From NCBI RefSeq assembly GCF_003367905.1, contig NZ_CP029462.1, forward strand, positions 2,294,001-2,358,000: DNA of 64,000 bases. Reading direction: 5' to 3'. Origin of the DNA: Megasphaera stantonii. GTDB lineage: Bacteria > Bacillota > Negativicutes > Veillonellales > Megasphaeraceae. The notes under the pieces were generated by a model, which worked only from the letters and a program-made list of their open reading frames with translations, did no database searches and was not told the DNA's origin. Within the stretch, counting starts at the first letter, position 1. Each line of letters opens with the position of its first letter. This document shows positions 3,195 through 10,108 of this stretch, piece after piece. A program made the position numbers and the translations under genes.

Positions 3195-4764
<1,570 letters not shown>

Positions 4765-4878: not shown

Positions 4879-4954
4879 GGGGGTGTAGCTCAGCTGGGAG
4901 AGCACCTGCCTTGCAAGCAGGGGGTCAGGAGTTCGATTCTCCTCATCTCCACCA
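4879..4954 (+). tRNA. tRNA-Ala (anticodon TGC)
   Basis: A 76-nt cloverleaf in the 16S-23S spacer. The acceptor arm GGGGGTG pairs with CATCTCC (two G-U pairs). The anticodon loop is CTTGCAA with anticodon TGC, the T arm contains TTCGATT, and CCA is encoded at 4952-4954. A tRNA-Ala in the rrn spacer is common. The usual companion tRNA-Ile is absent from this copy. Confidence 0.96.
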
Positions 4955-5077
4955 CAATTTTATTATGAGAGACCCGTACCTTGACAACTGCATAAAACGA
5001 AACGAACAAACCTCTTTTTTGAAGAAAAAGAGAAAGACTTAACGAACCGAAGAAACTCTGAAAACGGTGAAGACATA

Positions 5078-7988
<2,911 letters not shown>

Positions 7989-7990
<2 letters not shown>

Positions 7991-8050
7991 AGCAGGGAGC
8001 CCTGTTTGAAGGAGCTGAGAAGCGACGCACAAACAGGAGCGAGTCGCTTA
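7989..8050 (+). repeat. Structured element copy R1 (23S-5S spacer)
   Basis: Directly after the 23S end, an outer helix TAAGC/GCTTA (7989-7993 with 8046-8050) encloses an inner helix CCTGTTTG/CAAACAGG (8001-8008 with 8030-8037). The inner apical sequence is AAGGAGCTGAGAAGCGACGCA. Two diverged copies with the same architecture occur after the 5S gene (8366-8427 and 8581-8640). The base pairs differ but pairing is kept, so the structure itself looks selected. Function unknown. Confidence 0.7.
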
Positions 8051-8175
8051 CTCCCGAAGGGAGTGGGTGAGGGAATCTGGAAGCAGGTTCTGAGGAAGGA
8101 ACCGTAAACAGAGCGGAGGCTCGTTAAGGAAGTTCGTTTTATGCAGTTGTAAGGGCACGGGCCCTTAGGAAAAAT

Positions 8176-8290
8176 TCAGTGGCGATAGCTGCGGGGATCC
8201 ACCTGTTCCCATGCCGAACACAGCAGTTAAGCCCGCAAACGCCGAAAGTACTTGGGGGGAGGCCCCCTGGAAGGATAGGAAGCCGCTGAT
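8176..8290 (+). rRNA. rrf: 5S ribosomal RNA
   Basis: An approximately 115-nt gene with terminal helix TCAGTGGC (8176) pairing with GCCGCTGA (8282-8289). It contains the conserved loop sequence CCCATGCCGAACAC. RNase M5, which matures Firmicutes 5S rRNA, is encoded later in the window (32553-33113). Confidence 0.93.
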
Positions 8291-8294
8291 TCAG

Positions 8295-8329
8295 AAAGAA
8301 CGTATACGATATGTATGCGTTCTTTTTTT
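8295..8329 (+). terminator. rRNA operon terminator
   Basis: AAAGAACGTATAC pairs with GTATGCGTTCTTT (one G-U pair) around a 5-nt loop and is followed by a run of Ts. It lies five bases after the 5S gene. Confidence 0.9.
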
Positions 8330-8336
8330 GTATATG

Positions 8337-8357
8337 GCGGCTTCCTATCCTTCCAGG
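8337..8357 (+). repeat. Perfect inverted copy of the 5S 3' end
   Basis: These 21 bases are the exact reverse complement of 8266-8286, the 3' part of the 5S gene. Both arms are centred on the same point as the terminator hairpin, so a read-through transcript could form a much longer hairpin that would trap the 5S 3' end. A more diverged form of the sequence (GCGGCTTCCCATCC) recurs at 8537-8550. Confidence 0.8.
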
Positions 8358-8365
8358 TTCCTGGG

Positions 8366-8427
8366 ATAAGCAGAGAGCCAGTTTTGAAGGAGCGAAAGCG
8401 ACGCGCAAAACTGTGCGAATCGCTTAT
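8366..8427 (+). repeat. Structured element copy R2
   Basis: Outer helix ATAAGC/GCTTAT (8366-8371 with 8422-8427). Inner helix CAGTTTTG/CAAAACTG (8379-8386 with 8406-8413). The apical loop AAGGAGCGAAAGCGACGCG closely resembles R1. Immediately upstream CCAGGTTCCTGG (8353-8364) forms a further small hairpin. Confidence 0.7.
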
Positions 8428-8487
8428 GTCGGGTCCGTGCGTAAGCAGCACATGTCATGAAGAAGTATTCATGTGTGCAGACCCGAC
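8428..8487 (+). other. Long imperfect hairpin between R2 and R3
   Basis: GTCGGGTC at 8428-8435 is the perfect complement of GACCCGAC at 8480-8487. An inner CATGAA/TTCATG helix (8456-8461 with 8468-8473) extends the structure. No T run follows, so it is not an obvious terminator. No coding sequence is supported here. Confidence 0.5.
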
Positions 8488-8580
8488 TGATAGGTGAGAC
8501 GACCGCTAGCAGGAGACGTATTATGTTATATATATAGCGGCTTCCCATCCGATGCCAAAGAACTTGCCCTGGGATAAGCA

Positions 8581-8640
8581 TAAGCAGGGAACACCGTTTG
8601 AAGGAGCAAAGAGATGCGCAAACGGTAGTGAAGTTGCTTA
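8581..8640 (+). repeat. Structured element copy R3
   Basis: Outer helix TAAGC/GCTTA (8581-8585 with 8636-8640). Inner helix ACCGTTTG/CAAACGGT (8593-8600 with 8619-8626). The apical loop is AAGGAGCAAAGAGATGCG. Like R2 it is preceded by CCTGGGATAAGCA and by a GCGGCTTCC block, so the post-5S unit of about 100 bp is present twice. Confidence 0.65.
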
Positions 8641-8842
8641 CTTAAAATCGGAATAAACAAAACATCAAGATATTTAACCTACGGATCGAGTGTGCCAACT
8701 TGATGCCTTGCAGGAAACATATTAATCAAGTAGGTATTCTTTTTATATAGATTCCTTTCTGTTTTTCCATTTTCCTGTATATGAAAATCGGGCCAAACGA
8801 TTTAGTTTTTTAAGCGTTTTATATCGTTAACAATTGTTTTAA
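8641..8842 (+). other. Non-coding AT-rich stretch before the aminotransferase
   Basis: No gene is seen. CATCAAG (8663-8669) can pair with CTTGATG (8699-8705), and ACCTAC (8677-8682) with GTAGGT (8730-8735). The order of the arms is that of an H-type pseudoknot, though such short pairings can arise by chance. Confidence 0.35.
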
Positions 8843-8871
8843 TTGCATTATAGGTATAAAAGTGATATAAT
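8843..8871 (+). promoter_or_regulatory. Promoter of the aminotransferase gene
   Basis: TTGCAT at 8843-8848 and TATAAT at 8866-8871 are spaced 17 bp apart, about 50 bp before the start codon. Confidence 0.75.
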
Positions 8872-8920
8872 ACTATGCGCTGGGGAAATTTGATAACTAC
8901 GATTTAAGGGGTGTAGTATT

Positions 8921-10108
8921 ATGACAAGATTTTCTAGTTTTGCTCAGACGCTGCAGGCGTCCGATATTGCCGAATTATTGGCGTTAACAGAAAAACCGGA
9001 AGTAATTTCTTTTGCCGGCGGCTTGCCTGCTCCGGAATTATTTCCGATTGAAGAAATGAAAAAGGTCGACGAAGCCATTTACAATGAAGAAGGCCGTAAA
9101 GCCGTGCAGTATGGCACGACGGAAGGTTACGTGCCTCTGCGCGAAGAAATCTGCAAGCGCATGAAGGATAAATTCTTTGTAGACTGCAAGCCTGAAGACG
9201 TCGTCGTCACGACAGGTTCGCAGCAGGCGTTGTTTATTCTGGCTCAGATTTTGGTAGACAAGGACCAGACGATTTTGATGGAAAGCCCGTCTTACATGGG
9301 CGCTATCATGGCTTTCGACCCTGTCGGACCGAAATATACGGAAGTTCCGACAGATGATCAGGGCATCGTTCCGGAAGAATTGGAAAAGATCTTGGCTGCC
9401 GATGATTCTATCCGCATGATTTACGTCATTCCGGAGTTCCAGAACCCGACGGGCATTACCTGGCCTGTAGAACGGCGCAAAGCCTTCATGGATATCGTCA
9501 ATAAGTACGACGTCGTCGTATTAGAAGACGATCCGTATGGCGAAATCCGCTACGATATCGAAAAGCTGCCGTCTTTGAAATCGATGGATACGCAGGGCAA
9601 GGTCGTCTTCCTCGGCTCGTTCTCCAAGATTTTCATGCCGGGCCTGCGCCTGGGCTGGATTGTAGCAAATCCGGAAATTATCGATAAATTCGTAAAATTC
9701 AAACAAGCTGTCGACCTCGGCACGTCTACCTTCGGTCAGCGTCAGGCAGCATACTTCCTCAAGATGTTTGACATGGAAGCGCATATCGCTAAAATTACGG
9801 CATTGTATGCGAAACGCCGCGATCTCATGTATCAGTCCATGGAAAAATACTTCCCTGAAGGCGTTACCTTTACCTATCCGAAGGGCGGCTTGTTCACCTG
9901 GGTTACTCTGCCTGAAGGCATGGATGCGAAGGAATTAATGCCGAAATGCCTGGCGAAGGATGTTGCGTATGTTCCGGGCGGTATTTTCTACCCCAACGGC
10001 GGCAATGCTAACCATTTCCGTCTGAACTACTCCAACATGCCGGAAGACCGCATTGTCGAAGGCATCAAACGCTTGGGCGATGTATTGAAGGAAGAATTGG
10101 CAAAATAA
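8921..10108 (+). CDS. PLP-dependent aminotransferase, LysN / 2-aminoadipate aminotransferase type
   Basis: A 395-residue fold-type I aminotransferase of the MocR/LysN-like group without a DNA-binding domain. It shows ISFAGGLPAPELFP near the N-terminus, TTGSQQAL, the NPTG motif, EDDPYGEIRY and the PLP lysine in GSFSKIFMPGLRLGW. Members of this group act on 2-aminoadipate, aromatic, branched-chain or other amino acids, so the substrate cannot be fixed from sequence alone. The ATG at 8921 follows AAGGGGTG. The gene stands alone, with its own promoter and a terminator 15 bp after the stop. Confidence 0.85.
   Translation: MTRFSSFAQTLQASDIAELLALTEKPEVISFAGGLPAPELFPIEEMKKVDEAIYNEEGRKAVQYGTTEGYVPLREEICKRMKDKFFVDCKPEDVVVTTGSQQALFILAQILVDKDQTILMESPSYMGAIMAFDPVGPKYTEVPTDDQGIVPEELEKILAADDSIRMIYVIPEFQNPTGITWPVERRKAFMDIVNKYDVVVLEDDPYGEIRYDIEKLPSLKSMDTQGKVVFLGSFSKIFMPGLRLGWIVANPEIIDKFVKFKQAVDLGTSTFGQRQAAYFLKMFDMEAHIAKITALYAKRRDLMYQSMEKYFPEGVTFTYPKGGLFTWVTLPEGMDAKELMPKCLAKDVAYVPGGIFYPNGGNANHFRLNYSNMPEDRIVEGIKRLGDVLKEELAK

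Follow-up and report, generated by a model that had tools for sequence, protein, structure and literature searches.

Introduction

Descriptions of palindromic repeats in bacteria mostly concern short, tagged hairpins. REP elements are small dispersed palindromes of 20–40 bp, tagged with GTAG or CGTC at one end, that vary in copy number and are thought to be non-autonomous mobile DNA. The Rickettsia palindromic elements (RPE) are tolerated inside or beside functional genes, and the intervening sequences (IVS) of rRNA are hairpins positioned inside the rRNA gene, carried in the pre-rRNA and removed. The RPE of R. conorii end in CGTC, according to a passage of PMC3733652. Structured RNAs of Veillonella, Veillonellales/Selenomonadales or Negativicutes include the gltD, ldh2, ilvD and potE motifs, each of which precedes a particular protein gene in the parts of PMC8632094 that treat them; the words 'rRNA operon' are absent from the text of that paper.

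Results

Three copies of a hairpin element at the end of an rrn operon

The DNA analysed here, referred to as the window, is a stretch of 64,000 nucleotides (positions 2294001–2358000) from a Megasphaera stantonii contig that is a single 2.65-Mb genome. The window contains one rrn operon, with the 16S rRNA gene at 3196–4761, tRNA-Ala at 4879–4954, the 23S rRNA gene at 5079–7990 and the 5S rRNA gene at 8175–8291. The initial annotation had described three stem-loops, R1, R2 and R3, around the 3' end of this operon. Our analysis confirmed their positions (with R2 read as 8367–8426), the common outer helix TAAGC/GCTTA and the three inner helices, as well as the location of R1 in the 23S-5S spacer and of R2 and R3 beyond the terminator-like site at 8293–8327. 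The apical loop starts with AAGGAGC in all three copies, as had been claimed, whereas its GACGC end is found in R1 and R2 and reads GATGC in R3. Of the upstream sequences reported as common to R2 and R3, the shared GCGGCTTCC is part of inverted copies of the 5S 3' end. The features of the region are as follows.

4984–5001, + strand: 5' arm of a putative pre-23S processing stem (18 nt), a perfect complement of 8133–8150
7989–8050, + strand: R1, copy of the element in the 23S trailer, enclosed by the putative pre-23S processing loop; four of the six operons in its own genome have identical copies
8051–8063, + strand: H2 of R1, second hairpin immediately 3' of the R1 hairpin, CTCCCGAAGGGAG
8133–8150, + strand: 3' arm of the putative pre-23S processing stem, with R1 between the 23S end and this arm
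8266–8286, + strand: 3' part of 5S, one arm of a perfect 21-nt inverted repeat
8293–8327, + strand: rrn terminator-like site of the intrinsic type (16 pairs plus a T run)
8337–8357, + strand: copy of the 5S 3' end in inverted orientation, located upstream of R2 and pairing with 8266–8286
8367–8426, + strand: R2, element copy past the terminator-like site, 85.4 bits with the covariance model
8428–8487, + strand: Z, long hairpin GTCGGGTC...GACCCGAC immediately 3' of R2, occupying the H2 position
8536–8550, + strand: second, shorter copy of the 5S 3' end, likewise inverted (93%) and located upstream of R3
8581–8640, + strand: R3, more degenerate copy with a doubled 5' end (TAAGC-ATAAGCAG), 65.5 bits

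The two 18-nt arms enclose the 23S rRNA gene together with R1, and the Rfam match to 23S ends at 7990, two bases into R1. R1 is not a chance hairpin, as besides the four identical copies it has nine matches in its own genome (E values of 1.9e-12 to 1.4e-4). R2 and R3 are each preceded by an inverted copy of the 5S end and belong to a module that is repeated in tandem past the terminator-like site, starts with such an inverted copy and has a repeat spacing of about 200 nt. The folding z-scores of R1, R2 and R3 were -4.5, -3.6 and -2.7, respectively, with 4 of 200 shuffles folding as well as R3. In the minimum-energy fold of R1 with its flank, GACUU/GAGUC and the next hairpin replace the TAAGC/GCTTA helix, so the outer helix of R1 stands on comparative evidence. 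The single terminator-like site compares with 0.9 expected in shuffled sequences, and the two promoter-like sites in 7950–8950 compare with 1.6 expected.

As a separate observation, the inverted copy of the 5S 3' end past the terminator-like site is perfect over 21 nt (8266–8357), with a partial second copy at 8536–8550; an inverted copy so placed means that readthrough RNA could sequester the 5S end.

The covariance model identified 14 element copies in the 3' regions of the six rrn operons of the window genome, and a search of the whole genome returned the same number, 14. The operons carry 3 (window), 3, 3, 1, 2 and 2 copies. The 23S-trailer copy is identical in four operons and diverged, with a different inner helix, in one, while the remaining operon (E) retains only a remnant of the R1 outer helix, TAAGTAGAGAGTCGCTTA. 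Arrays of differing composition follow the 5S gene in five of the six operons; one operon ends in tRNA genes, with no copy after 5S.

The fold is conserved while its helices change

The seed alignment A1 consists of 53 copies from the window genome and its order, obtained from 56 pattern matches by dropping two false ones (in L010 and L052), which left 54, and by leaving out L037:416–482. Analysis of A1 revealed changes on both sides in at least one copy at 19 of the 21 modelled pairs, with standard pairs in 83.9% of the cells. The covariation score of 0.469 compares with a shuffled mean of 0.129 and was reached by none of 500 shuffles, and it fell to 0.06–0.09 when the partners were slid by 1–3 columns. 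Two further alignments, which were fitted to the covariance model and thus lean towards it, gave 18 of 21 pairs and 0.430 versus 0.122 (A2, 102 distinct copies) and 21 of 21 pairs and 0.414 versus 0.148 (A3, 70 distinct copies, reaching more distant genomes). Columns 12–14, three of the 21 pairs, are unpaired in 34, 43 and 42 of the 53 copies of A1 and mostly unpaired in A2 and A3 too; they form the tandem G-A region. The proposal that the RNA fold is under selection, made on three copies, has thus held as more sequences were aligned.

The R hairpin is about 62 nt long and contains two purine-rich internal loops. The outer helix is often TAAGC/GCTTA and elsewhere reads, for example, CCGC/GCGG; in Dialister the modelled pairing of this helix is often lacking. 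Inward of this helix is a small internal loop, next to which the majority of copies have GAAC opposite GUGA, readable as two pairs and tandem G-A, while some lineages have GCUC/GAGC, GCAC/GUGC or UGCA/UGCA at this position. A variable four-pair helix and UUUG/CAAA come next, after which AAGGA/GACGC flank a stem of two pairs with a short loop. The AAGGA/GAC bases are nearly fixed, with AGGA and the A of GAC invariant in A2, and the loop has drifted to TAGGAGC or CACGAGC in G364 and some other genomes. The inner-helix mismatches comprise 41 GU and 11 AC (A2 and A3, which have some copies in common), suggesting that the given strand is probably the recognised one, a preference that does not tell RNA from single-stranded DNA. 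Both internal loops have an NNN-GA strand, but the extra bases on the opposite strand do not fit a simple kink-turn, which was rejected on inspection of A1.

A second hairpin often follows R, and the two together span about 80 nt in the clearest insertion. For 76 copies near stable RNAs, 30% of the downstream 45-nt segments fold with z < -2, against 14% upstream; for 91 copies elsewhere, the values are 30% and 5%. With 30% of the downstream segments folding in this way, the second hairpin is frequent rather than universal, and it was rejected as a feature of every copy.

The family spans the class Negativicutes

Searches with the covariance model found further copies in related rrn operons and across Negativicutes. 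Under the stricter filters applied to the order and class searches, 41 of the 61 order genomes and 93 of the 380 class genomes had matches, with the class carriers falling in twelve labelled families, some by weak matches alone. The genomes of the order contain 0 to 68 copies each, with 68 in Dialister G025, and near-identical dispersed copies occur in Dialister succinatiphilus. At most 13 candidates per genome were scored in the class search, so its copy numbers are lower bounds. An exact-core pattern matched 95 stretches in the GTDB species collection, and the 80 matches listed belong to Dialister, Veillonella, Veillonellaceae, Megasphaera, Selenomonas, Selenomonadaceae, Selenomonadales or Phascolarctobacterium, all of which are Negativicutes taxa. 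This pattern is strict, so diverged copies may also exist outside the class.

Carriage by phages or plasmids was considered and set aside: one R2 query of 73 bases had no match in the phage and plasmid collections, and the strict pattern had none in viral contigs.

No named RNA family had been recognised in the plan of R1, R2 and R3, and none of the Rfam families matches them above the gathering score. For the loci scanned, the families reported by Rfam 15 were limited to rRNA, tRNA, RNase P and group I introns. At E values of 5 or less, 7980–8900 gave nothing but 5S and, far below the gathering score, miRNA and snoRNA families of eukaryotes or viruses. The literature matches listed (titles and abstract beginnings) contain no description of the element, which does not prove its absence from print, and this family of small repeats is apparently undescribed.

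Several other features were noted in these loci. A group I intron match (L213 2098–2294, in G366) lies beside a tRNA cluster that also holds an R copy. G364 has a class B RNase P RNA match (L267 3182–3511, in a tRNA cluster) and a class A match (L264 5515–5869), above the gathering score. The 5S gene is located between 16S and 23S in L261 and L263 (G364) and in L280 (G366), the last with a second 5S after 23S. The 16S V1 regions of L239, L242 and L243 are longer than that of the window, and in L243 about 175 nt are inserted into 23S close to position 1170, with no R match inside any of these. In Dialister loci such as L100 and L157, intergenic regions are packed with more GC-rich hairpins, and some Dialister hairpins (AAGGGAGC...GCGACC) look like more distant relatives of R.

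Filled and empty sites

Empty sites of the kind expected for a mobile repeat were found cleanly in G001, less cleanly in G323, G199 and G364, and among the congeners of the window. The 16S leader of G001 is the cleanest case. In three of its six operons, R and a second hairpin are inserted between CCAG and AGTGCG, with CCAG joined to ATAAGT at one end and CTCGGT joined to AGTGCG at the other; two of these filled leaders were read in sequence (L058 and L278), and the third follows from an identical distance to 5S. The empty leader, CCAGAGTGCG, is found in the other three operons and in all five leaders examined in the window genome. In G323, two 23S leaders are filled and one is empty, with TTAAGT flanking the insert on both sides. 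G199 has two tandem 23S 3' ends at a contig start, one filled and one empty, the filled end being a 225-nt 3' fragment of 23S whose flank differs too. In G364, one 16S trailer is filled and two are without R, with other differences also. Within the window's genus, the 23S-trailer copy is present in five of six operons of G000, both operons of G003 and the one operon of G006, and absent from 15 trailers of six congeners, namely G001 (6), G002 (1), G004 (3), G005 (1), G010 (1) and G011 (3); G013 was too short to judge, and five further genomes had no 23S match.

The insertions were also compared with the terminal inverted repeats and constant target-site duplication that mark a MITE. No constant target-site duplication was observed at the two judgeable sites, with at most AG in G001 and the TTAAGT repeat in G323. 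The R hairpin ends with TAAGC/GCTTA, but the unit inserted in G001 runs past this end into the second hairpin. Nested and doubled copies include the TAAGC-ATAAGCAG doubling of R3, R within the second hairpin of another R, and half-copy duplications. Nesting, doubling and filled/empty sites are traits of mobile or freely duplicating repeats. Gains and losses are not separable everywhere, and presence and absence could partly reflect deletion, because operon E retains the remnant of the R1 outer helix. In addition, the copies in G366:C1 at 25997, 51745 and 77493 are spaced by exactly 25,748 bases, which suggests either that a 25.7-kb stretch containing an rrn operon has been duplicated in tandem or that the assembly is at fault.

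Copies often lie at the edges of stable-RNA genes

For analysis of placement, 206 matches were reduced to 191 copies distinct by context, and four tRNA-linked copies (L049 and L057; all antisense) were added by hand. The copies come from loci fetched as matches and from extra loci sought near rrn and tRNA genes, and their shares are not unbiased. An rRNA or tRNA gene is located within 600 nt of 97 of the 191 copies, 87 in sense and 10 in antisense orientation; for the other 94, there is no stable RNA within 600 nt or the contig edge is reached. None of the 97 copies is inside 16S or 23S. Distances were measured from predicted gene ends, which ARAGORN supplied for tRNA; the 23S reference used for this purpose ends at 7978 and so falls 12 bases short of the Rfam match end.

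The sense copies 3' of a stable RNA number 71, with 5 after 16S, 19 after 23S, 12 after tRNA and 35 after 5S. The start of R is within 11 nt of the gene end in 5/5, 17/19, 10/12 and 0/35 of these, respectively, and the outer helix follows CCA directly in 7 of the 12 tRNA cases and within 8 nt in 10. At most CCA-abutting tRNAs, CCA is followed by TAAGC; shortly after the 16S end, CTAGGGA is followed by TAAGC; and most 23S junctions join CTTGACT or CTTAACT to TAAGC. At 23S, the foot of R overlaps the conserved tail, and GACTTAA is also present there in most congeners without R. R is also found at other spacer sites, in the 16S leader of G001 and the 23S leader of G323. In two antisense cases, a 5S or tRNA-Cys gene has its 5' end turned towards the 5' end of R.

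At Dialister-labelled loci, 46 of 51 distinct copies have no rRNA or tRNA gene within 600 nt, with L057 (G028) counted here for its genus label, which it shares with G025; the copies have mixed orientation towards neighbouring ORFs. Away from RNA genes in G364, R begins at, or no more than about 45 nt from, the end of a same-strand upstream ORF at three of six loci (L269, L272 and L273). Protein-coding neighbours are mechanical ORFs throughout.

Candidate mobilising enzymes

For the RAYT/Y1 transposase that serves as a mark of GTAG-type REP elements, Y1_Tnp matches over the cut-off were present in 7 of 15 carriers tested and absent from 8, including G001 and G025. RVT_1 matches were present in 7 of 16 carriers, and no reverse transcriptase match was obtained in 9, including G000, G001 and G199. 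Several of these carriers are draft genomes, and the absences possibly reflect loss after spread or draft-genome gaps. On these counts, we rejected Y1/RAYT mobilisation as a demonstrated mechanism and reverse transcriptase as a general mobiliser.

Discussion

Our analysis indicates that R copies are probably small non-autonomous palindromic mobile repeats that favour the edges of stable-RNA genes and form inert hairpins in the transcript. R is the conserved core of a Negativicutes family of non-coding palindromic repeats, which behave as if inserted preferentially at these edges and mostly in sense orientation. Each transcribed R would fold alone, sit in the pre-rRNA or between tRNAs and leave with the spacer, and since it folds by itself, the mature RNA would be undisturbed. 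The conserved loops may be the recognition site of an enzyme that acts on a folded single strand and joins the 5' foot of R next to the edge of a stable-RNA gene, and the transcribed hairpin may simply be tolerated.

The sense bias (87 of 97) and the close abutment to 3' ends would also suit a function at the RNA level. R could be a portable RNA signal, recognised in its folded state on the transcript by a nuclease or another RNA-binding protein that cuts at its 5' foot, so that a single cleavage would produce the mature 3' end of the tRNA, 16S or 23S. The placement near stable-RNA genes is consistent with such a signal, as 32 of the 36 sense copies 3' of 16S, 23S and tRNA start at most 11 nt from the predicted end (the mature 23S end being approximate) and seven abut CCA, and the favouring of GU over AC mismatches on the sense strand points the same way. 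Nevertheless, we consider this reading unlikely, since R is missing at the same place in sister operons and congeners, 10 of the 97 copies are antisense, two of which abut a 5S or tRNA gene 5' end to 5' end, the 35 sense copies that follow 5S are all more than 11 nt away, those of the window beyond the terminator-like site, and 46 of the 51 Dialister copies are remote from rRNA and tRNA genes. R is not a fixed rRNA signal: a processing signal should occur in all operons that mature the same rRNA, whereas operon E has a remnant and the 15 congener trailers are without R. The initial annotation had suggested an rRNA processing signal among the possible roles; as a primary role this is unsupported, because R is absent from sister sites and present after tRNAs, between protein genes and, less often, in antisense.

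A special form of the mobile-repeat explanation that we favour is that R is a palindrome-associated derivative of an IS200/IS605-type element, moved in single-stranded DNA form by a Y1 transposase since lost from some carriers. The G001 insert agrees with this origin in being a unit of two hairpins that shows neither obvious terminal inverted repeats nor a long target duplication, and tandem G-A pairs and GCGAAGC-type loops are stable in DNA also. Against it, 8 of 15 carriers, including the mixed-operon G001 and the 68-copy G025, lack a Y1_Tnp match over the cut-off, even if REP repeat families and tyrosine transposase genes need not coincide, as a passage of PMC3733652 states. No constant target tetranucleotide was seen either, and this specific origin appears quite improbable. 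Marginally less probable again is that R moves via stable RNA, being joined to or copied beside free 3' ends of tRNA, 16S and 23S and supplying a 3' processing site there, as a mobile RNA tag and not a DNA transposon; if so, the landing of the 5' foot on CCA and rRNA ends would follow. That R copies are decayed rrn-spacer duplications with no identity of their own is very hard to credit, for although R2 and R3 are in a duplicated module with inverted 5S ends, this reading is contradicted by copies after tRNAs and between protein genes and by compensatory helix change across the class. The earlier idea of a remnant of duplicated rrn ends thus explains the flanks of R2 and R3, while decayed spacer alone does not fit the tRNA, protein-gene and antisense locations.

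The R copies form a class-wide family with an elaborate fold that is kept while its helices turn over, often a few bases from the ends of tRNA and rRNA genes. Either some enzyme recognises the R fold and the edges of stable-RNA genes, or the cells own a portable 3'-end signal; cultivable anaerobes, Megasphaera, Veillonella and Dialister among them, would allow both readings to be tested, and the covariance model allows R copies to be annotated easily.

R was also compared with known systems. The gltD, ldh2, ilvD and potE motifs are each tied to a particular protein gene in the parts of PMC8632094 that describe them, unlike R. IVS resemble R as hairpins carried in pre-rRNA and differ in their position within the rRNA gene, where none of the 97 R copies near stable RNA is found for 16S or 23S. 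RPE belong to other bacteria, and the R consensus has no CGTC end, a separation made by description rather than by sequence comparison. Inspection of the R consensus ends for a GTAG or CGTC tag found TAAGC and GCTTA instead. In behaviour, R resembles REP and other small palindromic repeats without their end tags: like REP, it is a small palindrome, dispersed and variable in copy number, and it is distinguished by a length of about 62 nt, usually from TAAGC to GCTTA, and by its two purine-rich internal loops.
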